Below, one piece after another: positions 11,797 to 36,298 of a stretch of DNA of 64,000 bases. Source of the stretch: Desulfofustis sp. PB-SRB1 (GTDB lineage: Bacteria; Desulfobacterota; Desulfobulbia; Desulfobulbales; Desulfocapsaceae); the NCBI GenBank assembly GCA_016722945.1, contig JAEQMT010000038.1:310001-374000 (forward strand), written 5' to 3'. The translations under genes and the position numbers were made by a program. The notes under the pieces were generated by a model, which was not told the origin of the DNA, made no database searches, and worked only from the letters and a program-made list of their open reading frames with translations. The stretch's first letter is position 1. Every line of letters starts with the position of its first letter.

Positions 11797-13230
11797 TTAC
11801 AGACCGTCGACACCGGCCAACGAGATATGCTTGGTTTCCAGATAGGCATCAATGCCTTCGCTGCCCAGCTCTCTTCCCCAGCCGCTCTGTTTGAACCCGC
11901 CAAAGGGGCTGTTCGAGGTGGAGGGCACCGGGTCATTGACGCCAACCGTACCCGCCTCAAGTGCCTCACTTACCCGAAAGGCCCGGTTCAGATCGGTGGT
12001 GAAGACATAGGCGGCGAGTCCATACTCGGTATCGTTGGCCCATCCAACCACCTCCTCTTCGGTATCAAACGGGTACAAGGCGGCAATTGGCGCAAAAATC
12101 TCTTCCCGATAGCAGCGGGCATCACGGGAGACGTTTGCCAACAGGGTCGGTACGAGAAAATTACCGCGCTCACCCAGCCGTCCACCGCCCACTACCACCT
12201 CGGCGCCTTCCGTGCGCGCCTGATCGATGTAGTGCAAAGCGGAATCAAGGGCGCGATCATCCACCAGCGGGCCGATATCCACACCTTCCTCCAGGCCGTC
12301 ACCAACCTTTAGCTCGCTGATACGGTGCGACAACGCCGCTTTATATGCGTCATATTTCTCCCGTTGGATATAGATCCGGTTAGATGCAATACATGACTGG
12401 CCATTGTTACGGAATTTGGTGATCATAACCCCTTCAACGGCCCGCTCAAAATCGGCATCGTCAAAAACGATTATCGGGGCATTACCGCCCAACTCCAGGG
12501 ACAACTCCGTGCAGGTTTCAGCGGCGCCCGCGATCAGCGACTTCCCCACTTCCGTTGAACCGGTGAAACTGATCTTTCGACACAACGGGTTTGCCAACAT
12601 TTCCCGGGCGATATCGGAAGCCTTGCCCACGAGCAGTTGGAAAACGTTTCCGGGAAGTCCGGCGGTCTCGACGCACTCGGCAAAAAGGCAGGCGGAAATG
12701 GGCGTGGCGCTTGCCGGTTTCAGCAGCACCGTGCAGCCGGCGGCAAGGGCCGGCGCCACTTTACGCACCGCCAGCACCAATGGAAAATTCCAGGGCGCGA
12801 TGGCGCCCACAACACCACGCGGCTGACGAATAACAAGATGACGCTTGCCCTCTGCCTGATGCGGTACCACCCGGCCATAGGCACGTCGTCCCTCTTCGGC
12901 AAACCACAATAGATGATCGACTGCCATGGCCACCTCGCCTTTTGCCTGGGCAAGGGGCTTCCCGTTTTCAAGAACAATTGCATGGGCGATATCATCTCCA
13001 CGGCTGCGCAGTTCAGCCGCCACCGCCCGAAGGTAGTCGCCGCGCTCAAGCGCGGTGTGCGATTTCCAGTCGATAAATGCCTTGTCGGCGTCCTCGATCG
13101 CCTGTTTCACCTGCGCCGCGTCAACTGTGGCAACCTCGGCCGCGACCTCTCCCGTGGCCGGGTTCAGTACCTGGATTTTTTCGCTGGAATCATGCCATGC
13201 ACCGCCTCTGTAAATTTTATATGTCTTCAT
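11797..13230 (-). CDS. NAD(P)-dependent aldehyde dehydrogenase, succinate-semialdehyde/sulfolactaldehyde dehydrogenase type
   Basis: A 477-residue ALDH-superfamily enzyme close to GabD. The oxyanion Asn lies in PWNFP (N148), the general base in LELGG (E246) and the catalytic Cys in NNGQSC (C280). It oxidises an aldehyde to an acid. The GabD family also contains the sulfolactaldehyde dehydrogenases of sulfoquinovose/DHPS degraders, and the neighbours here favour that type of substrate; that part is inference. It is the last gene of the long minus-strand run, 59 bp after the MoaD-like gene, with GAGGATG in front of the start. Confidence 0.88.
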   Translation of the reverse strand: MKTYKIYRGGAWHDSSEKIQVLNPATGEVAAEVATVDAAQVKQAIEDADKAFIDWKSHTALERGDYLRAVAAELRSRGDDIAHAIVLENGKPLAQAKGEVAMAVDHLLWFAEEGRRAYGRVVPHQAEGKRHLVIRQPRGVVGAIAPWNFPLVLAVRKVAPALAAGCTVLLKPASATPISACLFAECVETAGLPGNVFQLLVGKASDIAREMLANPLCRKISFTGSTEVGKSLIAGAAETCTELSLELGGNAPIIVFDDADFERAVEGVMITKFRNNGQSCIASNRIYIQREKYDAYKAALSHRISELKVGDGLEEGVDIGPLVDDRALDSALHYIDQARTEGAEVVVGGGRLGERGNFLVPTLLANVSRDARCYREEIFAPIAALYPFDTEEEVVGWANDTEYGLAAYVFTTDLNRAFRVSEALEAGTVGVNDPVPSTSNSPFGGFKQSGWGRELGSEGIDAYLETKHISLAGVDGL

Positions 13231-13656: not shown

Positions 13657-14964
13657 TCAGAGCAGCCACAGGGAGAGGGCCGGGAAAAAGGCCAGAAACA
13701 GCACCACCACAAGCATCGACAGCACAAAGAACACGGCATAGCGCGAGATAGCCAGCACCGAGGTGCCGGTAACGCCTGATACCACGAAAAGGTTGAGCCC
13801 CAGAGGCGGAGTGATAAAACCGATACCCAGCGAGGTAATCATGAAGATACAGAAGTGGATCTCATTCATACCGATTTCAAGAGCCAGCGGCAACAGCAGT
13901 GGCGAGAGAATAACGATATTGGGGGTGGTCTCCATTACGCAACCGGCGATCATCAGAATCAGCAGCATGAGCAGGATAATGAGATACTCGTTGGTGGTGA
14001 AGGCGGTTATGGAATAGACGAAGAACTGAGGCACCTGAAGCGATGCCAGGGTTTGCGCCAGGGGATGCGACATCGCAATAATGGGGACGATCACACCATT
14101 TACCTTGGCTGAGTTTTCCAGCATCTTCGGAAAATCCTTCAGGGTGAGTGTACCCTGGAAAAAACCGATGATGATGGTGGTCATTACCGCCACCGCGGCT
14201 GATTCGGTGGGGGTGAAAATGCCCGAGTAGATGCCGCCTAGAATGATAAAGGGGATGAGCAGGGCATAGCGGGCGGAATAGACGGTTTTATACCAGTGCT
14301 TGAAATTGAATCCGATGTCGGAGGCCTCGTAGCCTTTAAACCGGTTGACAATAATGTTGGTAATCATCACCGAGGCGAGAATCAGCACCCCTGGAATGGC
14401 GGCGGCAAGAAACAGGGTGGAGGCTGAAATGCCCAGCACCAGGCCGATAATAATGTAGGCAATGGACGGCGGAATAAGAATACCCGTACAGGCGCCGGCG
14501 GCCACCAGGGCGCAGGCATAGCCCTTGGGATAGCCTTTTTCAACCAGGCGGTCGATGGTGATCCTGCTGATAGCAGCGGCATCGGCCGCATCGGAGCCCG
14601 AGATGCAGGCGAAGAACCCGCAGCCGAGCACCGTTGACGTTCCCAGCCCGGCCCGCTGCCAGCCCATGGTCGCCTCCGCCACTTCCAGCAGCTTTAAGGA
14701 CAATCCGGTACGAACCAGCACGTCGCCGGTCAAGATGAAAAGCGGTACGGCAATGAGCGCAAACGAATCAATCCCGTCGAAGAGCGCCTCACCGACCAGT
14801 GTGGTGGGAAGAACGCCGGTGGTATAGAGCATCACCAGCGAGCCGAGCCCGATCACCACCCAGATGCGAACGGCCAGTAAAATCAGAATGACCATGCCGA
14901 CCAAGGGCAGGTAAAATTCCCAGCCAAGCGACAACTCCTGTGGTTGCGTGAGGTATTGGTACAT
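13657..14964 (-). CDS. dctM: TRAP transporter large permease subunit (DctM)
   Basis: A 435-residue, twelve-segment membrane protein that carries the substrate across the inner membrane using a Na+ gradient. Family markers are FILTGDVLVRTGLS, SGSDAADAAAISR (the usual T/S-G-S-x-A-A motif), GILIPPSIAYIIIG and FITPPLGLNLFV. It follows dctQ by 20 bp. The three TRAP genes keep the order P-Q-M. Substrate cannot be read from this subunit; the context suggests a C3 sulfonate or hydroxyacid. Confidence 0.95.
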   Translation of the reverse strand: MYQYLTQPQELSLGWEFYLPLVGMVILILLAVRIWVVIGLGSLVMLYTTGVLPTTLVGEALFDGIDSFALIAVPLFILTGDVLVRTGLSLKLLEVAEATMGWQRAGLGTSTVLGCGFFACISGSDAADAAAISRITIDRLVEKGYPKGYACALVAAGACTGILIPPSIAYIIIGLVLGISASTLFLAAAIPGVLILASVMITNIIVNRFKGYEASDIGFNFKHWYKTVYSARYALLIPFIILGGIYSGIFTPTESAAVAVMTTIIIGFFQGTLTLKDFPKMLENSAKVNGVIVPIIAMSHPLAQTLASLQVPQFFVYSITAFTTNEYLIILLMLLILMIAGCVMETTPNIVILSPLLLPLALEIGMNEIHFCIFMITSLGIGFITPPLGLNLFVVSGVTGTSVLAISRYAVFFVLSMLVVVLFLAFFPALSLWLL

Positions 14965-14984: not shown

Positions 14985-15506
14985 TTAATCAAACAACTTG
15001 TTGCCTTCAAACACCGGACGCCCGGCCCGCATATCGCTCCAGTCCCGTTTGATTGACTGCAGCAGACGAAATACCATCATGGTAAAGCCAAGCGGTACCG
15101 CGGCGAGGAAAAAGGCCTGGCTGACCCGCAAGCCATGGGTGACGGAGCCGTATTCAATGGAAATAATGACCGGCTCCATCGACATATAGATCACCAACAC
15201 CGCCAGAATCAGCGTGATAACATCGCCAAAGAGAAAGACAATCGCCTTCATTCGTTGCGGAAAGACGTGCAGCAGGATATCGATACGGATATGGGCACGC
15301 TCCTTGATGGCCGCGGACGCCCCGATCCAGGCGATATATATAAATGCGTAGCGGGCGATTTCCTCGGCCCAGATGGATGAATAAGAGAGCACGCTTCGCC
15401 GCACCACCTCCATGAAGATGGTACTCACGACCATGGCGTACAGGGGGAGCAGCAGATACCGCTCGCCGTTCTGGTCAATCAGTTTCAATATCTTTTTAAA
15501 CGTCAT
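14985..15506 (-). CDS. dctQ: TRAP transporter small permease subunit (DctQ)
   Basis: A 173-residue protein with four transmembrane helices and the family signature EEIARYAFIYIAWIGASAAIKERAHIRID. It pairs with DctM to form the membrane unit that docks the periplasmic receptor. The Shine-Dalgarno AAAGGTGG is clear. It lies between dctP and dctM. Confidence 0.93.
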   Translation of the reverse strand: MTFKKILKLIDQNGERYLLLPLYAMVVSTIFMEVVRRSVLSYSSIWAEEIARYAFIYIAWIGASAAIKERAHIRIDILLHVFPQRMKAIVFLFGDVITLILAVLVIYMSMEPVIISIEYGSVTHGLRVSQAFFLAAVPLGFTMMVFRLLQSIKRDWSDMRAGRPVFEGNKLFD

Positions 15507-15588: not shown

Positions 15589-16743
15589 TTAAATATCATG
15601 CACGTAGAAGCCGTTGAAGGTATTGGCGGCTTCCGCCAATGCATCGAAATTAGCCGGGGAGCCCACCAGCTCTACCTTGATGTCATCCCAGTCGGGAAGC
15701 TGGGCGCCGGCCTTAGCCACCCATAGCTCCTTTTCTTCCGGGGTGGGCACGTAGAACTCAACCCCGGCCTTGCCCAGTTCGGCCATGGCGTAGGCCCGGG
15801 CGGCGGGAACCTTGGCAAGGTTCTGTCGGCTCGTCATTTCGCTGGCAAAATCGATGCCTTCCTGAACATCGCCCGGCAGACTCTTGAACCATTTCAGATT
15901 ACAGGAGTAGACCTGAGAATCGGGCACCGCCGAGTTGAAGGTGATGGAGGACAAGATATCCTTGAAGCCGAAGACCAGCAGAGCCTGGACTGAGGGGTCA
16001 AGGGCATCGGCAACGCCCTGCTTGATGGCCGATGAGGTCTCGCCCCAGGCCACCGGGGTCGGGTTGGCGCCGATCAGCTGGTAGAACTGCTGGAGAATCT
16101 TCGAACCCGGCACCCTGAACTTGATGCCCTGCAACTGATCAGGGGTCTTAATGGGGCCATCAACCCCCTTACGGACTGCACAGGTGCGCGGGTCGATGCA
16201 GACATACCAGAGCGCCTTGAACCCTTTTGCCTCAATCTTGGGATTGATCTCCTGCTTCCATTGATCCGAGGTCACCAGATTGATGAAGCGCTGGTTTTCA
16301 CCACACCAGTAGGGGATGTTGATAACATCCGCGGCCGGGGCAAACGGTGCAAAGTTGGAGATGGAGTGCTGCGCCGCCTGGATCGTTCCCGCCTGCACCT
16401 TCTGGACAAGGGCGCTGCCGGCGCCGAGCTGGCCGCCCGGGGCGAGCTTGACGTATACCTGCCCATTGGTGGCATTTTGCACGTTTTCCTTGAAATCAAG
16501 CTGCATGATGGGATAGGTGCGGGAGGCGCCAAGAATGTATGCCGTTGCCACATTCATGGTGTATGTGGCATTGTCCTGCCGCTCTTTTTCCTCGTTGGCG
16601 GTCATTGCCGCCGCCTCATCGGACCACAGGGCGCCGTGGGCGAGGGCCACCGCCGCGGCGGTGAAACCGATCTTGCCGCTCAACTCCAGGAAACGGCGCC
16701 GATCAGCGGATTTCAATGTTTGTATTTCTTTTTTCTCCGTCAT
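15589..16743 (-). CDS. dctP: TRAP transporter substrate-binding protein (DctP family) with Tat signal
   Basis: A 384-residue periplasmic receptor from the ATG at 16743, chosen because GAGGAGGG lies 7 nt upstream; an ATG 14 codons earlier lacks such a site. A twin-arginine signal (RRRFLELSG followed by a hydrophobic run and AAA) suggests export in folded form. The body has the DctP landmarks QLDFKENVQ, APGGQLGAGSALVQKVQAG, GIKFRVPGSKIL and GETSSAIKQGVADALD; the Arg of KFRVPG normally grips a substrate carboxylate or acid group. It heads the TRAP operon. Confidence 0.93.
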   Translation of the reverse strand: MTEKKEIQTLKSADRRRFLELSGKIGFTAAAVALAHGALWSDEAAAMTANEEKERQDNATYTMNVATAYILGASRTYPIMQLDFKENVQNATNGQVYVKLAPGGQLGAGSALVQKVQAGTIQAAQHSISNFAPFAPAADVINIPYWCGENQRFINLVTSDQWKQEINPKIEAKGFKALWYVCIDPRTCAVRKGVDGPIKTPDQLQGIKFRVPGSKILQQFYQLIGANPTPVAWGETSSAIKQGVADALDPSVQALLVFGFKDILSSITFNSAVPDSQVYSCNLKWFKSLPGDVQEGIDFASEMTSRQNLAKVPAARAYAMAELGKAGVEFYVPTPEEKELWVAKAGAQLPDWDDIKVELVGSPANFDALAEAANTFNGFYVHDI

Positions 16744-16765
16744 GATACTTCCCTCCTCTTTTGGT

Positions 16766-17011
16766 TCATTGTTGTGGTTCTGCATTAAAGGCCGCTTCTT
16801 TGATTAATGCGGCCGCGATGAACGCCACTGAAGCCGAGAATAAAATGAGGCACTCCATGATGCTGCCAAAATGAAATATCTTCCAGCCATAGACAATATT
16901 GGCCTTACCAATCAATACGTTGAGCAGGTAGAGCCCAAACGTGCAGAAAAATACCGCCAGTGCGATTCGTGCTGCCGGAGTATTGTTATTTCTCGTATCA
17001 TCGGTATTCAT
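16766..17011 (-). CDS. Small two-segment membrane protein preceding the TRAP operon
   Basis: An 81-residue protein from the ATG at 17011 (GGAGA upstream; an earlier ATG at 17035 is possible). It has two hydrophobic helices, about residues 15-35 and 45-67, and short polar ends. It lies 22 bp before dctP on the same strand. Small proteins of this kind are often found beside TRAP genes, but I recognise no family and can give no function. Confidence 0.55.
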   Translation of the reverse strand: MNTDDTRNNNTPAARIALAVFFCTFGLYLLNVLIGKANIVYGWKIFHFGSIMECLILFSASVAFIAAALIKEAAFNAEPQQ

Positions 17012-17036
17012 GTTCTCGGTATCTCCATATGGCATT

Positions 17037-17210: not shown

Positions 17211-18086
17211 CTACGAGCGTTTCGTCGTCCCGATGGCCTTGAAGACCGCGTTGCAGTCTTCCTTGCCGTATCCTTGTTCCGAGGCGGATTTGTAGAGCGC
17301 CAGCACGGCTTCCATGGCGCCGAGATCCAGCCCCCAGGCCCGGGCCATCTCACAGCCGAGTCGAACATCCTTGAGGGCCAGATCGAGACCGAAGCGATTG
17401 TTAAAATCACCGGCGGCAATCCACGGCCCCCGCACATCCATCTGAAAGCTTCTGGCGCCGGTATCCTGGAGCAGTTCGATCAAGAGATTTTTCTCGATCC
17501 CGGCCTGCTCACCGACCCGTATGCCTTCGGCGAGAATTGCCAGATTACCCATGCCCACCATATTACTGATGAGCTTGACGGCGCAGGCCGCCTCCACCCC
17601 GCCCATGTAATATGCCGGTGCACCGATAATCGGCCAGATATCGGCCATTTTCTCAAAAACAGCCTTATCGCCGCCGATAAACATCGGCTCCTCCGCCTTT
17701 TCCGCGTGGGCGGGCGTTTTGCCCAGGGTGCACTGCAAAAACTCGATCCCCTTGGCGCCGGCACTGTCACGCAGAGCCACCGATGTCTGTGGATCTATGG
17801 TGCTGAGTTCCACATGCACGGTACCGCCGGCCAGCTTCTCGTAGAGCCCGTCCGTCCCCAGCATGACGCCCTGGACATGGGCGGGCATCGGCAAAGATGT
17901 AAAGACAAGCCCACAATCGGCCAGATCGGCCACGGCGGCGGCGGCGCCACTGCTGCCGGCTTCCAGTGTCCGCTGTACCGCTTCCTCGCTCAGATCGTAT
18001 ACCAATACCTCTTTTCCAGCCCTGATGAGATTGCGGGCCAACGGCCCACCCATCAAACCAACGCCGATAAAACCGATTTTCATCAC
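17211..18086 (-). CDS. Beta-hydroxyacid dehydrogenase family oxidoreductase, YihU-like (possible sulfolactaldehyde/DHPS oxidoreductase)
   Basis: A 291-residue NAD(P)-dependent enzyme. It has the Rossmann motif GFIGVGLMG (residues 5-13), ELSTIDP around 93-99, the catalytic Lys of AVKLISN at K171 and an LALKD motif near the C-terminus. Ordinary family members carry SGG in the substrate loop. Here residues 122-125 are GKTP, close to the GRTS loop that contacts the sulfonate in E. coli sulfolactaldehyde reductase YihU (recalled from family knowledge). That, plus the SuyAB-like neighbours, suggests DHPS-sulfolactaldehyde interconversion; 3-hydroxyisobutyrate or tartronate semialdehyde are the alternatives. 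Confidence 0.85.
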   Translation of the reverse strand: MMKIGFIGVGLMGGPLARNLIRAGKEVLVYDLSEEAVQRTLEAGSSGAAAAVADLADCGLVFTSLPMPAHVQGVMLGTDGLYEKLAGGTVHVELSTIDPQTSVALRDSAGAKGIEFLQCTLGKTPAHAEKAEEPMFIGGDKAVFEKMADIWPIIGAPAYYMGGVEAACAVKLISNMVGMGNLAILAEGIRVGEQAGIEKNLLIELLQDTGARSFQMDVRGPWIAAGDFNNRFGLDLALKDVRLGCEMARAWGLDLGAMEAVLALYKSASEQGYGKEDCNAVFKAIGTTKRS

Positions 18087-18200
18087 ATCCCCCCCTTGTA
18101 TTATTTTTAATATGATTCTATAGACTTAACCCTGCCCATAGCTGATCTATCGCCACCAGGGTTGGTACCTTGATCAGAAGCGTTATCAGGCCGCATATCA

Positions 18201-20093
18201 TCAGACCGACAAACTTGCCTCAGGCAGCCAGTCAAGACCAAGTTGGAATAGTTTTCCTCTGGTGGGCCGGCCATCTGAGTCCCAGCCACTCATCTCATAA
18301 TAGAGATTCACCCATTGCCTGAATTGGTCCGGCTCAAAGCGTACACCCTTGAGCGGCCCATCCGCCATTTTCTCAAACCAGCGGCGAATCAGGGTGTCGT
18401 CATCCGGGGTAAATCCGCACCGGTTATTGAAAACCCGGGCCAGCACATTTGCCCGTTCGACCCCGTCGACAATTTCATACAGACTGGTCTCCCAACCGGT
18501 AATCGCCTGCACCGCCTCAACCAGTCTGGTGAAGGTCATGGCGTGGATCGGCACCGAACAGAAGTTGCAGAGCCCAAGCAGGTTGTTGATTCCCCACGCC
18601 TTCTGGCCAACGTAAAAAAACCGTACCTTGGCGCCGTCCATTTTTACCGGGTCAATGGGATCGAGCAGCCCCATAGGATTGAGCTTACTGATCCCCTCCC
18701 CCTGGAAGGCAACGTCATGCGGCGTCTCGATATGATCCCCACCGGTTGGTCCAAGGGCAAAGCCGAGTCCCATGCCCGACTTGCCGCGACCATCGTGCAG
18801 TCCCAGTTCCTGGCCTTTGATGTGAAAGGCGTAGCGTTCGGCGCCGTTGCCGATTTTCGCGGCAGCTTGTTTGACGCCCATGGCGAGAACCTCGCCGAGG
18901 CCTCGTTTCGCCGCGATCTCTTCCACCAGCCAGGTCAGGGCCTCAGCGTCACCGAAGGCAAGGGATTTACCACCGGTATCCTCGGTGGTGATAATCCCGT
19001 TTTCAAAACACTCCATGGCAAAGGCGATCACCCCGCCGGTGGAGATGGTGTCAAGCCCCAGCAGGTTACAGCGCTGATTGGCATAGGCCACCGCCGGCAG
19101 ATCGTCGATGGCCAGCATGGAACCAAACGCGGCGATGGATTCATATTCGGGGCCGCCAAACCGCTTGTCCAGCGGGTAGGTCTCGTCATCCAGGGCAACC
19201 CTGCGCTTACAGGCAACGGTGCATTGAAAACAGGTACCCCGGGAATCGAAAATGGTGTCGTGATAAGCATCAGCGGCCAGTTTCTGGGCACCCTCAAACT
19301 GCCCCTGCTGAAAATTTCGGGTAGGGAAAAATCCGGCATCGTTTACCCCCTTTACCAGTCCGGGGGTACCAACCTTGTGCAGGCCGATATTCGGCGGATG
19401 GGTCTTGATCCGTTCCCGATGCCACGTGCCGATTTCCTTCACCTTGTCGGGGTCCGCCAGGCTCAGTTTGCCGGTGCCGCGCACACCGATGGCCTTAAGG
19501 TTTTTGGCGCCCATGACGGCGCCCATGCCGGTGCGCCCGTTGAAATGCTCAAGATCGGTCTGCACGCAGGCATATGAAACAAGATTTTCACCGGCGGGAC
19601 CGATGCTGACAATCCGCGCCTTGGGCTCGGCGACATCGGCTTTGAGTTGTTCAAGGGTCTGCCAGTTATCAAGTCCCCACAAGCCGGCGGCGTCGCGAAT
19701 CTGAGCCTCACCGTCGGTGATCCACAGATAGACCGGTCTGGCGGCTGTGCCCCTGATGATGATTGCATCAAAACCGGCAAATTTGAGCTCCGGCCCCCAG
19801 AAGCCGGCCGCCTCGGTGCGGGCGAACCCACCCGTCAGGGGGGATTTGGCGCCGATTGCATAGCGGTTGAATCCCGCCAGGGGCGCCCCGGTAACAACAC
19901 TGCAGGCAAAAACGAGAACATTATCGGGCCCCAGCGGATCGACATCGGCCGCCACCTCATCGCACAAAATCTTGCCGATGATTCCTGATCCACCGAAGTA
20001 GGTGCGGTACCACCGTTCATCGAGCTCTCTGACTTCGATGGTTTCATCGCTGAGATTTACCGCGAGGATTTTTCCGTTATATCCATGTGGCAT
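18201..20093 (-). CDS. aor: Tungsten-dependent aldehyde:ferredoxin oxidoreductase
   Basis: A 630-residue AOR-family enzyme that oxidises aldehydes to acids (or reduces acids) with ferredoxin. The N-terminal domain (GYNGKILAVNL...) binds the bis-tungstopterin together with TGAPLAGFNRYAIGAKSPLTGG. The [4Fe-4S] ligands are C288, C291 and C295 (CFQCTVAC), with the fourth in GLCNFC (C509 or C512). The start has GGAGGG a few bases upstream. It sits between the TTT and TRAP transporters and next to the YihU-like gene. The substrate is unknown; sulfolactaldehyde is a reasonable guess from context. Confidence 0.95.
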   Translation of the reverse strand: MPHGYNGKILAVNLSDETIEVRELDERWYRTYFGGSGIIGKILCDEVAADVDPLGPDNVLVFACSVVTGAPLAGFNRYAIGAKSPLTGGFARTEAAGFWGPELKFAGFDAIIIRGTAARPVYLWITDGEAQIRDAAGLWGLDNWQTLEQLKADVAEPKARIVSIGPAGENLVSYACVQTDLEHFNGRTGMGAVMGAKNLKAIGVRGTGKLSLADPDKVKEIGTWHRERIKTHPPNIGLHKVGTPGLVKGVNDAGFFPTRNFQQGQFEGAQKLAADAYHDTIFDSRGTCFQCTVACKRRVALDDETYPLDKRFGGPEYESIAAFGSMLAIDDLPAVAYANQRCNLLGLDTISTGGVIAFAMECFENGIITTEDTGGKSLAFGDAEALTWLVEEIAAKRGLGEVLAMGVKQAAAKIGNGAERYAFHIKGQELGLHDGRGKSGMGLGFALGPTGGDHIETPHDVAFQGEGISKLNPMGLLDPIDPVKMDGAKVRFFYVGQKAWGINNLLGLCNFCSVPIHAMTFTRLVEAVQAITGWETSLYEIVDGVERANVLARVFNNRCGFTPDDDTLIRRWFEKMADGPLKGVRFEPDQFRQWVNLYYEMSGWDSDGRPTRGKLFQLGLDWLPEASLSV

Positions 20094-20206: not shown

Positions 20207-20686
20207 TTATTCAAATAAAAAACCAACCGGTAACGGCACCATGAGAAACGTGCTGAACAGGGTATAAAACCCGGCGACAACGGCCACCGCCACCACCGGA
20301 TAGATCAGGCGCCGCTTCGTTGTCCACGGTTCATACATGGATACCATCATCAACAAGCCAAAGCTCACCATGCCGCAGAGCAGAAAACCGAGCCACGGCA
20401 TGGCAAAACAACTCAACAGCATCACCGCCACCAGCATAACCCGCCGTGGTGTCGACTCACCCCCCGCTGTAACTGGCGCCCGTTCGCCGGGCCTGATCAG
20501 GTTATAGAGGATCAGCAGAAGGCTGAAGACAATCAGGGCGATGGCGATAGCTCGCGGAAACACATAGGAATCTGAGTCCATCATCGTGGTGGTGTCCCAG
20601 AGCGCAATGCAGGAAAGGACGATGAACACGCAGGCCGTGGCCATACCGCCGATATCTCTTTTGGGCTGGGGGCTGCGCGTGGTCAT
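20207..20686 (-). CDS. tctB: TTT transporter small membrane subunit (TctB family)
   Basis: A 159-residue protein with four hydrophobic segments typical of TctB (AIAIALIVFSLLLILYNLI near residue 48, two adjacent helices around 86-120, the last at 129-158). With TctA and the receptor TctC it forms a tripartite tricarboxylate-type transporter. It starts 4 bp after tctA ends, so it is the third gene of that operon. Confidence 0.85.
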   Translation of the reverse strand: MTTRSPQPKRDIGGMATACVFIVLSCIALWDTTTMMDSDSYVFPRAIAIALIVFSLLLILYNLIRPGERAPVTAGGESTPRRVMLVAVMLLSCFAMPWLGFLLCGMVSFGLLMMVSMYEPWTTKRRLIYPVVAVAVVAGFYTLFSTFLMVPLPVGFLFE

Positions 20687-20689
20687 GGG

Positions 20690-22189
20690 CTATGTTCTCC
20701 CGGCCCGGCGTGACCAGCGTGCCCTGAGCAGCGGGTAACTCAGGGAAAAGAGAATGAAAACGATAATTGCCAGGCTGATCGGCCGGCCGAAAAACATCTT
20801 CCATAACTCACCGGTGGCGGCCCCTATGGTCCACGCCTGGACGAATCCCTGTTCGGCGATACGCCCCAGAATGAGGCCCAGAACGATGGGTGAGGGGCTG
20901 AAACCGAAACGGTTTAGAATCCAGCCGATAACGCCAAGCACGATCATGATGATAATGTCGGAAACACTGTTTCTGATCGCATACGTTCCGATCATGGTCA
21001 TGAATGCCACGGTGGGCACCAGCACCGCCTTTGGCACGGTGATTATCGTCCGGTATGCGTAGCGACCGATAACAAGACCCACCGGAAGCATCAGGGCGGT
21101 GGCGATAAAGAGCCCATAAATGAAGGTATAGACAATCGAGCCGCCCTCGGTGAACAGGCTGGGCCCGGTGCGAACCCCTTGGATCAGCAGCGCCCCCAGA
21201 ATAACGGCGTCGGGCGGGGTGCCGGGAATACCCAGCACCAGGGTGGGAATAAACCCGCCGCCAACGGTGGCGTTATTGGCCGATTCGGTGGCAAGAATGC
21301 CCTCCGGCTCGCCTTTGCCGAAATGCTCCCGGCGCGATGAGGTTCGTCGTGCCTCGGAATAGGCCACCAGACCGGCTATAGAGCCGCCCGCTCCAGGCAG
21401 AATACCCACCAGGGTGCCGATCACCGAGCTGCGCAGCAGGCTTAGCTTGGCCTTCCAGGAGATGGCCAGCGCCTCGAAAAACCTGAATCCCCGGGGCTGA
21501 TGGGTTACCTTGAGATGTTTGTCGGGGGTGGCCACCAGATCGATGAGCACCGGTATGCAATAAAGCCCGATCAGCGCCGATACCGTCTCGATTCCGCCCA
21601 GCAGTACCTGAGAGCCAAAGGTAAAGCGCACATCGGCGCTGATCTCGGCAATACCGACACTGGCCAGCAGTAAACCAAAGCATGCCCCCATCAGCCCTTT
21701 GAGCAGATTTCCCTCCGACAGCGCCGAAATCAGGGTGAGACCGAACACCGCCAGCCAGAAATATTCCACCGGGCCAAAGGCCAGAGCCACCTTGGCAAGC
21801 GGTGGCGACAACATCAGCAGAAACGCCGCCCCCACAAAACCGCCGGTAACCGAGGCGAGGCAGGCGATGGATATGGCCAGATCGCCTTCGCCGCGCCTGG
21901 CCATGGGAAAGCCGTCGAAGGTTGTGGCGATTGCCGACGGCGTTCCCGGAGTGTTGAGTAAAATAGCGGCATAGGCGCCACCGTAAATGGCCCCGGTGTA
22001 GATAGCCCCCATCAGGATCAAGGCCGAACTGGGCGCCATGGAAAAGGTGATGGGCACCAGCACGGCAACAGCCATGGTGGCGGTCAATCCCGGCAGAGAT
22101 CCGATCACCGTTCCCGCAATCACCCCTGATAGTGCGAGAAAGATGTGCCACAGGGTCAGCGCGGCAACAAGATACTCAAATCCGGGCAT
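20690..22189 (-). CDS. tctA: TTT transporter large membrane subunit (TctA family)
   Basis: A 499-residue transporter with about twelve membrane segments. Family markers are GTVIGSLPGLTATMAVAVL, GAIYGGAYAAILLNTPGTPSA, VGILPGAGGSIAGLVAY and GGGFIPTLVLGIPGTPPDAVILGAL. A Shine-Dalgarno GGGAGGG precedes the ATG. TTT systems of this kind import citrate and other carboxylates, and one (SlcHFG) is associated with sulfolactate utilisation. Position next to the SuyAB-like genes supports such a role here. Confidence 0.93.
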   Translation of the reverse strand: MPGFEYLVAALTLWHIFLALSGVIAGTVIGSLPGLTATMAVAVLVPITFSMAPSSALILMGAIYTGAIYGGAYAAILLNTPGTPSAIATTFDGFPMARRGEGDLAISIACLASVTGGFVGAAFLLMLSPPLAKVALAFGPVEYFWLAVFGLTLISALSEGNLLKGLMGACFGLLLASVGIAEISADVRFTFGSQVLLGGIETVSALIGLYCIPVLIDLVATPDKHLKVTHQPRGFRFFEALAISWKAKLSLLRSSVIGTLVGILPGAGGSIAGLVAYSEARRTSSRREHFGKGEPEGILATESANNATVGGGFIPTLVLGIPGTPPDAVILGALLIQGVRTGPSLFTEGGSIVYTFIYGLFIATALMLPVGLVIGRYAYRTIITVPKAVLVPTVAFMTMIGTYAIRNSVSDIIIMIVLGVIGWILNRFGFSPSPIVLGLILGRIAEQGFVQAWTIGAATGELWKMFFGRPISLAIIVFILFSLSYPLLRARWSRRAGRT

Positions 22190-22291: not shown

Positions 22292-23257
22292 CTACTGAAT
22301 GATGTTGGCTTCCCGCGCCGCTTCCAGATAGATAGCGGACATCTTCTCGATAAATTCGGTATAGCCGTCGTAATCCACATCGAGCAGTGCCATACCGTCG
22401 TTTTCCATCCGCGCCCGAAACTCGGGATCAGCATTGATCTCACCGATCATCTCTGAAAGCTGCCTCCGAATCGGCTCCGGCGTCGACTGGGGTACGGCAA
22501 TTCCGCGATACGCGCCGGAGACAAGGTCATAGCCCAGCTCTTTGAAGGTGGGGACATCGGGGAATTTTGGATGACGCTCTTCCATGGCCACGGCGAGCAT
22601 ACGGACGTTTTCGGCATGTTGGGCGCCCACCGAGGTGTAGCCCCATTCCGCTCGTACCTGATCACCCAGCAGAGCGGCAACCGCCTTGCCGGTTCCCTTG
22701 AAGGCGACATAGGTGGTCTTGATTCCCGCCATCTTGTCAAAACGCAGCTGGGCGAGATGATTGGCGGTGCCTTTGCCGGAACCGGAAAAGGTTAATTTAC
22801 CCGGATTCTCCTTGGCATAGGCAACCATCTCCGCCAGTGTCTGAAACTCACTGTCGTTGTTGACGACAATGGCGTCAGGGGTGTAGTGGAACATAAATAC
22901 CCCGGTGATATCCTCCGTCTTGAACCCGACGTCTTTCTGATTCGGTTGAATGATGATATGCGGGAGATTGATGCCCATGATGTTGTAGCCGTCACCCTTC
23001 ATCTTGTTCAACTGCGCCCAGCCAACCGCACCGCCGCCCCCCGGCTTGTAGGAAATGACCAGATCTTGGCCATATAATTTCTTGAAATACGGCTGCTGGT
23101 GACGGGCGGTAATATCAGATTCCCCGCCCGGCCCGAAAGGAATCACGTAACTGACCGGCTTGGTCGGGTAATCATCGGCATGAACGAACGAAGCGACCGA
23201 CAGCAGAAAGGCACTGATCAGCCCAATCAAAAAACGTGTGTCGATTTTTACTCTCAT
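22292..23257 (-). CDS. tctC: TTT transporter periplasmic receptor (TctC/Bug family)
   Basis: A 321-residue binding protein from the ATG at 23257, chosen for the GGAGGAG just upstream; the upstream part of the open frame has no signal peptide. The signal peptide RFLIGLISAFLLSVASFVHA is cleaved before DDYPTKPV. Bug-family landmarks are VSYVIPFGPGGESDITAR, SYKPGGGGAVGW, LTFSGSGKGTANHL and GGAVAALLGDQV-like sequence. It delivers substrate to TctAB and lies downstream of suyB-like by about 110 bp. Confidence 0.9.
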   Translation of the reverse strand: MRVKIDTRFLIGLISAFLLSVASFVHADDYPTKPVSYVIPFGPGGESDITARHQQPYFKKLYGQDLVISYKPGGGGAVGWAQLNKMKGDGYNIMGINLPHIIIQPNQKDVGFKTEDITGVFMFHYTPDAIVVNNDSEFQTLAEMVAYAKENPGKLTFSGSGKGTANHLAQLRFDKMAGIKTTYVAFKGTGKAVAALLGDQVRAEWGYTSVGAQHAENVRMLAVAMEERHPKFPDVPTFKELGYDLVSGAYRGIAVPQSTPEPIRRQLSEMIGEINADPEFRARMENDGMALLDVDYDGYTEFIEKMSAIYLEAAREANIIQ

Positions 23258-23366
23258 GGTCTCCTCCACACCATATTGTGTTTTCATTGATGATGGCTCT
23301 TTAAATAAATCGGCGGGCCGAACCGGATTGGCCGTATCGCGTCGGCCCACCAATACCGTGTAACGA

Positions 23367-24527
23367 TCAGGCGCTCTCATACAGCTTGGTCATGATAAAC
23401 TCACGGTGGCCCAGCGCTTCGGCCGCCGTCAGGCGGCCATTTGCGGTCCGCATCATCATGTCAAGCAGCTTGTCACCGGCCTCATCGAGATTTATTTCGC
23501 GGCGCACCAGACCGGATACATCCACATCAAAGTGCTCCGACATGGTTCTCAGTGTGCGCGGGTTGGAGCAGAGCTTGATAACCGGCAGGATCGGGTTGCC
23601 GATGATGTTACCCTGCCCGGTGGGAAAGAAATGAACGACAAAGCCGGAAGCGGCGCACAAGGTCACCTGCTCCGCCGCGGCTGAGGATGAATCCTGAAAC
23701 CAGAGGCCCGGACCGGTGGGCTCAACCGCTTTTTCCAGACACCCGACAACCGGCGGTTTGGTGCCGATTTTCTGAATATTGCCCAGGGCCTTTTCCTCGA
23801 TAGTGGTCAGGCCGCCCTCGATATTGCCCTTGGTGGGCTGAGAATCGGAAAGATCGTTGGTCTTGTTATCGTCAACGACTTTGGCGTAGCGGTCGAAGAA
23901 AAACTGAAAGTCCTTGCGTACCTGGTCGTTGGCGCACCGGGCCAGCACCAGATGCTCACCGCCGGTAAGCTCGGTGGTTTCACCAAAGAGCAGGGTATTA
24001 CCCATTTCATAGAGCTTGTCATAGGCGTTGCCGACGGTGGGGTTGGTGGCAATGCCCGAGGTGGTATCCGACTCGCCGCATTTGGTGGAGACCCATAACT
24101 CGCTGATATCACATTGTTCACGCTGTTTTTCGGTGGCCGCCTGGAGAAATTCCATGGCCGTCCGGGAAGCGGCGCAAATCGTGTTGAAATCGCCATTTTT
24201 TTCAATCGCAAAGCCTTGTACCGGTTTGCCGGTTTGGGCGATGCCCTGGACAATACGATCGGTCCACTGCGGTTCAATGCCGATAACGACCACCGCCGCC
24301 ACATTCGGGTTACAGCCGGCGCCGATCAGGGTGCGGAAATGCAGTTCGAGATCCTCGCCGAACTGAAGCCGGCCATAGGCATGGGGAATGGCCAGGGTTC
24401 CCTTGACGTTATTGGCAACCGCTTCACAGGCGGCATTGGAAAGGTCGTCCAGGGGAAGGATGATGACGTGGTTGCGAACCCCGACCCGGCCGTTTTCGCG
24501 GCGATATCCATAAAATTGTTTGTCCAT
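23367..24527 (-). CDS. suyB: UxaA-family lyase large subunit, probable (2R)-sulfolactate sulfo-lyase beta (SuyB)
   Basis: A 386-residue protein of the altronate/galactarate dehydratase (UxaA C-terminal) family in split form. It begins [20 protein letters not shown], has [21 protein letters not shown], the [15 protein letters not shown] stretch and [20 protein letters not shown], and ends [14 protein letters not shown]. The overall length and these motifs agree with SuyB as I remember it, which with SuyA splits (R)-sulfolactate to pyruvate and sulfite. The ATG at 24527 follows AGAGGTGG and directly abuts the small-subunit stop. A sugar-acid dehydratase is the alternative. Confidence 0.7.
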
Positions 24528-24529
24528 TG

Positions 24530-24814
24530 TTACCACCTCTTGGTTTTGACGTTATGAACATGCAGGTGCTCGCCTTTTTTGATCGGTGCGACGACCTTGC
24601 CGATGTCGGTATTGTATTTGATTACGGTGTCGCCTTCGGCGAAATCCTGTAAGGCGACCTTGTGACCGATTGGAATGGCATCGAGAATCTTCACGGTAAT
24701 CGTCTGATCCTCTTTCATCACCCAGCCGGTGATCTCCTGGTTGGCCTCAAGCCCCTCCACCACCACGACACCAACCCCGTCCGCGGCTTCGTGTACGAGA
24801 AAATCCGGTACCAT
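24530..24814 (-). CDS. suyA: UxaA-family lyase small subunit (SAF domain), probable SuyA
   Basis: A 94-residue stand-alone SAF domain, the N-terminal part of UxaA enzymes. It carries [19 protein letters not shown], the [24 protein letters not shown] core and the end [14 protein letters not shown], in which the His pair is expected at the active site. SuyA of sulfolactate sulfo-lyase has this length and ending. GAGGAG precedes the ATG, and the stop codon lies inside the Shine-Dalgarno region of the large subunit, so the two are coupled. Confidence 0.7.
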
Positions 24815-25009: not shown

Positions 25010-26275
25010 TTATGCAGTTTTATAAAAATAGGTTGTGTTTGCATTGGGGACGATACCGATTCTCGGGGGCGACGCGGCGCCGGCCACCCATTCGTGCAAA
25101 ATCTCCGACGGCTCCGCCGAACGCAGGTGGCAGGTGCGAAGAATTGCCGGATCGAGATCGGAAAACACCGCCACATCAAAACGGCTCAGGGTTCTGCCGA
25201 ACAGATACGCCTTATGGGCGCCCATTCTGAAACCCTCTCGTTTAAACTCCGCCATCACCTCGCCGGGAGAGGCAAAGCGAGAAACATAATCAAAGTAGAC
25301 ATCATCACCGACCCCCTGGGAAGAGGCGGCAAGCAGCAGGATATTGCCCCCTTCCCGGAGCGCCTGAGAGGCGAGGTTGAGTCCTTTCTGGGCCTGATAG
25401 AGACAGATATCCTTGGGGTAGCCGCCGCAACTGGCGACAATAATGTCGTACGGCTCGGTGATCTCAACCCCGTATATGTCGGCGCAGACCCTCACCCCCT
25501 CGCTGAGGACGGCAAGGGGCCGCCCAACAAACACCGCGACAATGCTGTTGTCCGGGGCCATCACCACATTGACCGCCAGATCGATGCCGATCATCTCGCC
25601 CGCCTCGTTGAGATCCTCACGCACCGGATTGCCGGCAAGCCTGCCCACCAGCGCATTGTCGCTGAACATCAGGCTGTGATTGTGTTCGATGGTCGCCTTG
25701 CCGCCGCAGCCGATGACCGCCCCCTTGGCACCACCGGTAAAACCGACGAACTGATGGGGATCGATCTGGCCGATGACGATCTTGTGATCGGCCTCGGCAA
25801 AGGCACGATTTACCTGCACGGGAGTCCCGCGGCTGGTAACGCCGTAATCGATCATGGCACTGTGCAGCGCATCATGAGCGAGCACCACACAGCCGCCGAC
25901 AATCTCCGGAGCGACCAGGCGGTTCAACTCCGTCTGGGTAACCGGCGGATGCAGGCCACCGCCGACAATGATGGTGATGTGGTTGGGAAGCAGGGAAGTA
26001 TTTTTCGCAAAAAGCCACTGCAGAAATGGCGGCAGAATCTGGGCCACCGGTAGCGGGCGCGTCTCATCGGGAATGACGATTGCCACTTTCTCGCCGTTTC
26101 TGATTAACGGGATCAGATCTGGGTCGTCTATTTCCAGACGGGCCAGCTCGGCGGCAAGCGCCTGGGCAGGCGAGGCAACCGGGACGGCCGTGGCCGGCGC
26201 CAGAATATCCGCGTAAGCCGGCTCGGGTATGTCGATCTCTACAGTCCCCCGACCATATTTCAACTCAATGCCCAT
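25010..26275 (-). CDS. LarA-family nickel-pincer 2-hydroxyacid racemase
   Basis: A 421-residue LarA homologue, which inverts alpha-hydroxyacids by hydride transfer to a nickel-pincer nucleotide. All key residues seen in lactate racemase appear at matching places: Arg in DETRP near 73, H109 in GLHPPVT, H174 in DPHQFVGF, K184 in GGAKG (cofactor attachment) and H200 in EHNHS (Ni ligand). The ATG at 26275 follows GGGGGG. It is the first gene behind a sigma-54 promoter and precedes suyA/suyB-like genes, so sulfolactate is the favoured substrate; lactate, malate or a sugar acid are possible. LarB/C/E cofactor genes are not in the window. Confidence 0.88.
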   Translation of the reverse strand: MGIELKYGRGTVEIDIPEPAYADILAPATAVPVASPAQALAAELARLEIDDPDLIPLIRNGEKVAIVIPDETRPLPVAQILPPFLQWLFAKNTSLLPNHITIIVGGGLHPPVTQTELNRLVAPEIVGGCVVLAHDALHSAMIDYGVTSRGTPVQVNRAFAEADHKIVIGQIDPHQFVGFTGGAKGAVIGCGGKATIEHNHSLMFSDNALVGRLAGNPVREDLNEAGEMIGIDLAVNVVMAPDNSIVAVFVGRPLAVLSEGVRVCADIYGVEITEPYDIIVASCGGYPKDICLYQAQKGLNLASQALREGGNILLLAASSQGVGDDVYFDYVSRFASPGEVMAEFKREGFRMGAHKAYLFGRTLSRFDVAVFSDLDPAILRTCHLRSAEPSEILHEWVAGAASPPRIGIVPNANTTYFYKTA

Positions 26276-26304
26276 TTTCCCCCCGTTGGTGTGAGGTTTA
26301 CTTT

Positions 26305-26320
26305 TGCAATAACCGCGCCA
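26305..26320 (-). promoter_or_regulatory. Sigma-54 (-24/-12) promoter
   Basis: On the minus strand TGGCGCGGTTATTGCA matches the RpoN consensus TGGCACG-N4-TTGCW at every position but one (A to G). It lies 30 bp upstream of the LarA-like start codon, and 69 bp further upstream begins the large palindrome. It should drive larA-suyA-suyB and perhaps the TTT genes. Confidence 0.88.
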
Positions 26321-26389
26321 CCCTAAGGGCATCCCGCAACCTTTTATAATTACTTCTTATATTACCTATCAACAAACCACGTGCCGAAA

Positions 26390-35033: not shown

Positions 35034-35327
35034 ATGACAGAAAAAAGGCGCAGGACCTACACCGCGGCATTCAAGGCAAAGGTTGGCTTGGAGGCGATCC
35101 GTGGGGTACAGACTACTAACGAAATTGCCCAGGCATACGGTGTCCATCCGGTGCAAGTCGGCCACTGGAAAAAGGCGATCACCGAACAAGCCGGGACACT
35201 GTTTGAAACCAAGCGGGGACGCAAAAAACGCGACGAAGCCACTGAGCCGGATAGATTATACACGGAAATCGGCCGGTTGAACATGGAGCTGGACTGGTTG
35301 AAAAAAAAGTCCGGACTGAGCCGATGA
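35034..35327 (+). CDS. IS3-family transposase OrfA (HTH/leucine zipper)
   Basis: Ninety-seven residues: the helix-turn-helix KRRRTYTAAFKAKVGLEA...NEIAQAYGVHPVQVGHWKKA binds the terminal repeats, and a heptad region IGRLNMELDWLKKK mediates dimerisation. Near the end a run of eight A (35301-35308) followed by G is a classical -1 slippage site. The -1 frame is open from there into orfB, so an OrfAB fusion transposase can be made. Confidence 0.9.
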   Translation: MTEKRRRTYTAAFKAKVGLEAIRGVQTTNEIAQAYGVHPVQVGHWKKAITEQAGTLFETKRGRKKRDEATEPDRLYTEIGRLNMELDWLKKKSGLSR

Positions 35328-36298
35328 GCGTTCGACAAACCTGGATAGAGCCTGCTCCAGCAGGCGAATCCTCAGCTCTATCGCTGAGTCGCCAGTGTGA
35401 ACTGGCCGGAGTAACCCGCTCAGGGGTCTATCGGTGCTGGAAGGGTGACACTCCGGTCAGCGAGCTGGATCTGAAACTGCTGAGGTTAATTGATGCCGAG
35501 TACACCCGCCGTCCCTTTTACGGCAGCAGGAGAATGGTCTTATCGTTACGTGATGCTGGGTATCAGGTCAACCGTAAGCGGGTACAGCGTTTGATGAAGG
35601 TACTCGGACTTGCCGGCATGCTGCCCGGACCTCATACCAGCAAACCGCATCCCACCCATAAGATCTATCCTTACCTGCTGCGTGGTGTGGCCATTACGCG
35701 ACCAGACCAAGTGTGGAGCGCCGATATCACCTATATCCGGTTGGCCCACGGGTTTGCCTATCTGGTGGCGATCATGGACTGGTATTCTCGTCGGGTCTTG
35801 GCCTGGCGGTTGTCAAATACACTTGATTCAGGCTTCTGTATCGACTGCCTGGAAGAAGCACTCCGTACGTATGGTGCGCCTGAGATATTCAACACTGACC
35901 AGGGGGCTCAATTTACCAGTACGGCTTTTACGAAGGTGCTTACGGATGCGAAGATTGCGATCAGCATGGATGGACGGGGCAGGGCATTGGATAATATTTT
36001 CGTCGAGCGGTTGTGGCGCAGCGTCAAATATGAGGATATTTACCTCAAGGGGTACGAGTTCTTTGCCGAATTGTACCGTGGCCTCCGAGCGTATTTCACC
36101 TATTATAACGACGAGCGCCCCCATCAGGCGTTGGGCTATCTTACGCCCACATCAGTCTATCGAGCGGGCACGGGCGGGGGTGCGGAAATAAAGGATCATT
36201 TCAACACGGATAGCTCCGGTACCATTTCGGCTCCGCTTCGCTCCACCGAAATGGTACCGGAAAGAGGAACTGGGGCAGCGCTAATCCGCTGCGAATAA
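35324..36298 (+). CDS. IS3-family transposase OrfB (DDE integrase)
   Basis: A 324-residue rve-type integrase domain. It has the HTH_21 start SRQCELAGVTRSGVYRCWKG, the first catalytic Asp in VWSADITYIRL, the second in IFNTDQGAQFTS, and the DDE Glu near ALDNIFVERLWRSVKYEDIYL, followed by YFTYYNDERPHQALGYLTP. It starts in an ATGA overlap with orfA and lies in its -1 frame. It looks intact. Confidence 0.93.
   Translation: MSVRQTWIEPAPAGESSALSLSRQCELAGVTRSGVYRCWKGDTPVSELDLKLLRLIDAEYTRRPFYGSRRMVLSLRDAGYQVNRKRVQRLMKVLGLAGMLPGPHTSKPHPTHKIYPYLLRGVAITRPDQVWSADITYIRLAHGFAYLVAIMDWYSRRVLAWRLSNTLDSGFCIDCLEEALRTYGAPEIFNTDQGAQFTSTAFTKVLTDAKIAISMDGRGRALDNIFVERLWRSVKYEDIYLKGYEFFAELYRGLRAYFTYYNDERPHQALGYLTPTSVYRAGTGGGAEIKDHFNTDSSGTISAPLRSTEMVPERGTGAALIRCE

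Follow-up and report, generated by a model that had tools for sequence, protein, structure and literature searches.

A predicted DhpA-type DHPS dehydrogenase with a GKTP loop in a compact sulfonate gene cluster of Desulfofustis sp. PB-SRB1

In the window, i.e., the whole 64,000-nucleotide stretch of DNA analyzed here, the product of the gene at 17211-18086 is in all likelihood an NAD-dependent DHPS 3-dehydrogenase of the DhpA type, acting in a route that would lead from DHPS, a plant- and algae-derived sulfonate, to sulfite respiration. This kind of enzyme is already known (DhpA of a Desulfovibrio), and the interest of the locus lies mainly in the compactness of the cluster (Table 1) and in a candidate racemase encoded within it.

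Gene cluster and proposed route

Table 1. Coordinates of the cluster genes and of the dehydrogenase loop (positions in the window).
Position	Strand	Feature	Basis or remark
11797..13230	-	Succinate-semialdehyde-type aldehyde dehydrogenase; candidate sulfolactaldehyde dehydrogenase (SlaB-like)	In cluster in relative locus L094
13290..13565	-	Small ThiS/MoaD-like protein encoded within the cluster; may serve the oxidoreductase cofactor	
13657..14964	-	TRAP transporter large permease DctM	
14985..15506	-	TRAP transporter small permease DctQ	
15589..16785	-	TRAP solute-binding protein	Matches solved 'DHPS TRAP transporter' 24gc
16766..17035	-	Conserved 89 aa protein	No Pfam family
17211..18086	-	DhpA-type DHPS dehydrogenase candidate (beta-HAD), 290-291 aa	Pfam, alignment, AF2 model, 9k2j match
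17712..17723	-	GKTP loop replacing VSGG-type loop	Residues 122-125 from GTG 18086; position derived from the residue numbering
18201..20093	-	Aldehyde:ferredoxin oxidoreductase (AFOR_N + AFOR_C); candidate sulfolactaldehyde oxidase	Pfam
20207..20686	-	TctB	
20690..22189	-	TctA	
22292..23380	-	TctC solute receptor	
23367..24536	-	SuyB-like sulfolactate sulfo-lyase large subunit (galactarate/altronate dehydratase superfamily)	Assigned from its context and size
24530..24814	-	SuyA-like small subunit (SAF domain)	SAF match just below Pfam cut-off
25010..26332	-	LarAH5-family nickel-dependent 2-hydroxyacid racemase; candidate sulfolactate racemase	NF052595
26412..28034	+	Sigma-54-dependent regulator, divergent from cluster	Present in relatives

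The whole cluster is found in the same order in a relative (genome G016), and dsrA is encoded elsewhere in the same genome (569.6 bits). The TRAP binding protein matches 24gc over its mature length (522 bits, E 7e-156). SuyAB is predicted from the pairing of a SAF small subunit (20.1 bits, against a cut-off of 21) with a GD_AH large subunit, and such pairs are kept together in relatives. The aldehyde:ferredoxin oxidoreductase gene lies beside or near that of DhpA in many relatives; its counterpart in Desulfovibrio sp. DF1 was inactive after expression in E. coli (PMC6278857). The 89 aa protein is kept between the DhpA and TRAP genes in several relatives, with 43-60% identity.

Because of these cluster genes and of DsrA encoded elsewhere in the genome, the route from DHPS to sulfide is complete on paper. 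DHPS would be imported by the TRAP and/or the Tct transporter, and DhpA would oxidize its C3 alcohol to 3-sulfolactaldehyde; the catalytic Lys171 would polarize the hydroxyl, and the pocket would be shaped at its sulfonate end by the GKTP loop. The aldehyde would then be converted to 3-sulfolactate by the aldehyde:ferredoxin oxidoreductase and/or the aldehyde dehydrogenase, SuyAB would cleave 3-sulfolactate into pyruvate and sulfite, and sulfite would be respired to sulfide by DsrAB. Desulfobulbaceae-related bacteria would accordingly count among the likely DHPS degraders, by way of a single compact cluster, and correct naming would turn what databases call a '3-hydroxyisobutyrate dehydrogenase' gene into a marker for sulfonate respiration.

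The GKTP loop and its resemblance to YihU

The dehydrogenase displays the standard architecture of the beta-hydroxyacid dehydrogenases (beta-HADs), with NAD_binding_2 and NAD_binding_11 domains (Pfam) and the catalytic lysine of the family, Lys171, which is invariant in the clade alignment wherever the column is present. The usual loop of typical beta-HADs is DAPVSGG, and at its position the alignment places CTLGKTPAHA. Within the loop sequence FLQCTLGKTPAHAEKAEEP, GKTP occupies residues 122-125 if GTG 18086 is taken as residue 1, and the original prediction of an unusual loop, numbered in this way, is borne out; the ribosome-binding site and the starts of orthologues favor the next codon, ATG 18083, which shifts GKTP to 121-124 and leaves the match to the YihU column unaffected. 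L-G-K-T-P is invariant in the aligned clade members (26/26), and the 29 other beta-HADs examined from the same phylum all lack G-[K/R]-T at this place, so that the motif is not due to chance. Among the other 64 sequences of the clade comparison, G-[K/R]-T is carried only by a clade fragment (L029) and by a paralogue from the same genome (L003, with LGRTPAHA). Elsewhere in the phylum, more distant homologues (42-66% identity) also keep LGKTP.

The LGRTPAHA paralogue adjoins a Gfo/Idh-type gene, and an SDR oxidoreductase and a hexonate-epimerase-like LarA are encoded nearby, i.e., in an apparent sugar-acid context, which indicates that this type of loop also occurs outside sulfonate clusters. 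Loops of this class are rare, yet alone they are no proof of a sulfonate substrate, and as independent support for a sulfonate reading of the region the loop is weaker than originally proposed. The LGRTPAHA-bearing protein is the third beta-HAD of the genome (L092:9897-10796).

The sequence of E. coli YihU, taken from the K-12 record NC_000913, carries GRTS at residues 122-125, in the same alignment column as GKTP and in agreement with the original prediction. The two proteins have in common the fold (PDB 6sm7), the position and type of the loop, the catalytic Lys and a C-terminal Lys-Asp; they differ in physiological direction and share 27% identity, the loop itself is similar rather than identical (G-K-T-P for G-R-T-S), and the score against the YihU sulfolactaldehyde reductase family NF012005 is 143.6 bits for a cut-off of 348 bits (NCBIfam). 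In the YihU ternary complex, described reportedly in ACS Catal in 2020, the sulfonate is reported to be bound by the side chains of Asn174 and Ser178 and by the Arg123 backbone amide. The positions of Asn174 and Ser178 are occupied by Ser and Gly in every clade member covering them, without exception. As these two reported contacts are replaced and that of Arg123 is through its backbone amide, the presence of Lys for Arg in the loop says little alone. The proposed resemblance to YihU therefore stands as to the column and the kind of loop, and falls short as to overall identity and the reported sulfonate contacts. The GKTP loop, if active, would probably act via backbone amides and loop shape, and the pocket may be completed by the clade-invariant Ser174, Arg219 and Trp222 together with the nearly invariant Arg212; we infer the role of each loop residue from sequence.

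An AF2 model of the product (mean pLDDT 94.6) has its best structural match in PDB 9k2j (TM 0.94, 74% identity), the closest solved structure, which has the same QCTLGKTPAHAEKAEEP loop. This entry, released in 2025, differs in its deposited name, '3-hydroxyisobutyrate dehydrogenase', i.e., in a carboxylate substrate; a literature search found no paper naming 9k2j. The Foldseek comparison of the model with YihU gives a TM of 0.68 and an rmsd of 13.7, which probably reflects a different domain arrangement.

Identity as DhpA and competing substrates

In the relatives scan, the dehydrogenase belongs to a clade of about 60-81% identity found almost wholly in sulfate/sulfite reducers; beyond these lineages, the scans met a single MAG, which is labelled Syntrophomonadaceae. 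In the same scan, identity falls to 32% for the nearest relatives outside the clade. Relatives on plasmids are distant (<=41% identity).

DhpA of Desulfovibrio sp. DF1 (Ga0134130_130620) carries out the NAD-dependent oxidation of DHPS to sulfolactaldehyde and is inactive on 3-hydroxyisobutyrate, and the activities of DhpA, SlaB and SuyAB were shown in that organism (PMC6278857). Compared by description, the DF1 enzyme is likewise a beta-HAD annotated as 3-hydroxyisobutyrate dehydrogenase with 27% identity to YihU, and is co-encoded with an aldehyde:ferredoxin oxidoreductase and a succinate-semialdehyde-type (SlaB) dehydrogenase that feed SuyAB and sulfite respiration (PMC6278857); both kinds of companion are also encoded here. 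In contrast with DF1, where the genes lie on different contigs and with an ABC-type transporter candidate (PMC6278857), here the dehydrogenase, SuyAB, TRAP, Tct, racemase and regulator genes form one cluster. The predicted DhpA identity is supported by the agreement of clade, annotation, 27% YihU identity and gene context with DF1 DhpA. Fold, loop, catalytic residues, clade membership, gene cluster and dsrA are direct observations on the DNA; true orthology with DhpA, with the same substrate, we infer from description and gene context.

Of 395 genomes sampled in the phylum, 10 bear DhpA, and 6 of these also encode SuyB (hypergeometric P about 7e-7, with phylogeny disregarded); some clade members lie on contigs with no SuyAB in view. 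The DhpA-like clade, the match to the 'DHPS TRAP transporter' and SuyAB lend good support to both the DHPS/sulfolactaldehyde substrate of the original prediction and its sulfonate reading of the region. The substrate reading is very probably right, by virtue of DhpA orthology and context and not of YihU similarity.

A rival reading, with a carboxylate as substrate and the protein as a common 3-hydroxyisobutyrate dehydrogenase or tartronate semialdehyde reductase, would accord with the title of 9k2j and with the top NCBIfam scores (162 bits for tartronate semialdehyde reductase, 143.6 for sulfolactaldehyde reductase). However, all NCBIfam scores, including 136.5 bits for TIGR01692 (3-hydroxyisobutyrate dehydrogenase, cut-off 291.6 bits), are far under the curated cut-offs (397, 348 and 291.6), the carboxylate-type VSGG loop is lacking, the DF1 enzyme of the same description does not act on 3-hydroxyisobutyrate (PMC6278857), and the gene context is that of sulfonates. 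A plain carboxylate substrate was rejected on the scores, the loop and the context, and we regard it as very improbable. Even less probable is a YihU-type sulfolactaldehyde reductase working in the reductive direction in sulfoquinovose breakdown: although fold and loop column are common to YihU, SuyAB, DsrA and DHPS-type import imply oxidation, and no sulfoquinovosidase, isomerase, kinase or aldolase is present among the annotated cluster genes. This role was likewise rejected, on the oxidative context, the missing sulfoglycolysis genes in the cluster annotation and the 27% identity, along with the replaced Asn174 and Ser178.

In a third alternative, the enzyme would oxidize some other C3-C4 sulfonate, or a sugar acid, that the cluster handles. 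The presence of two transporter types, TRAP and Tct, which suggests more than one imported compound, and the sugar-acid context of the GRTP-loop paralogue would suit this reading; nevertheless, DHPS is favored by the resemblance of the TRAP binding protein to a DHPS transporter and by SuyAB, which is often encoded alongside, and another substrate has but a slight chance of being the right one.

A candidate sulfolactate racemase beside SuyAB

The protein encoded at 25010-26332 scores 548.6 bits against NF052595 (cut-off 462), i.e., within the LarAH5/MAR1 malate racemase family, and genes for the cofactor proteins LarE and LarC are encoded in the same genome. The gene adjoins SuyAB, and this pairing is repeated in other families of the phylum. 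SuyB is present in 18 of the 395 sampled genomes of the phylum and in 6 of the 9 with the best LarA (E <= 1e-97, a cut from weaker matches chosen after seeing the results), where 0.41 would be expected (hypergeometric P about 3e-7, ignoring phylogeny). Half of these six genomes (3/6) share one genus, and the LarA and SuyB genes lie within about 3.3 kb of each other in five. One relative (G012, L095:33-15126) carries SuyAB twice, each pair accompanied by a separate LarAH5 gene, flanking DhpA, oxidoreductase and TRAP genes, and a LarE gene at 17294-18100 of the same locus.

Sulfoglycolysis yields S-DHPS (PMC11382572), and SuyAB is described as an R-sulfolactate sulfolyase (PMC11131964). Since sulfoquinovose-derived DHPS is S and SuyAB takes R-sulfolactate, the route requires a change of configuration, for which a LarA racemase would be suitable, malate being a close analogue of sulfolactate. 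The LarAH5 protein beside SuyAB may thus be a nickel-dependent sulfolactate racemase, converting S- to R-sulfolactate in one step and replacing the two-dehydrogenase (SlcC/ComC) route, a tentative reading from sequence to which we give slightly less than an even chance. The main alternative is a role on malate, the substrate on which the LarAH5/MAR1 family was assayed, sulfolactate and sulfonate being absent from the main text of that study (PMC11770544); the assayed LarAH5 is from Desulfitobacterium hafniense (Desulfitobacteriaceae), and a literature search for the term 'sulfolactate racemase' found none. If the sulfolactate racemase is real, part of the 'malate racemase' LarAH5 family is misnamed and the LarA family gains a sulfonate substrate, and the use of sulfoquinovose-derived S-DHPS by anaerobes, whose SuyAB acts on the R form of sulfolactate, is explained.

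Elsewhere in the window, two adjacent ORFs at 35034-36298 resemble an IS3-type transposase pair, on visual inspection of no more than the beginnings of the ORFs.
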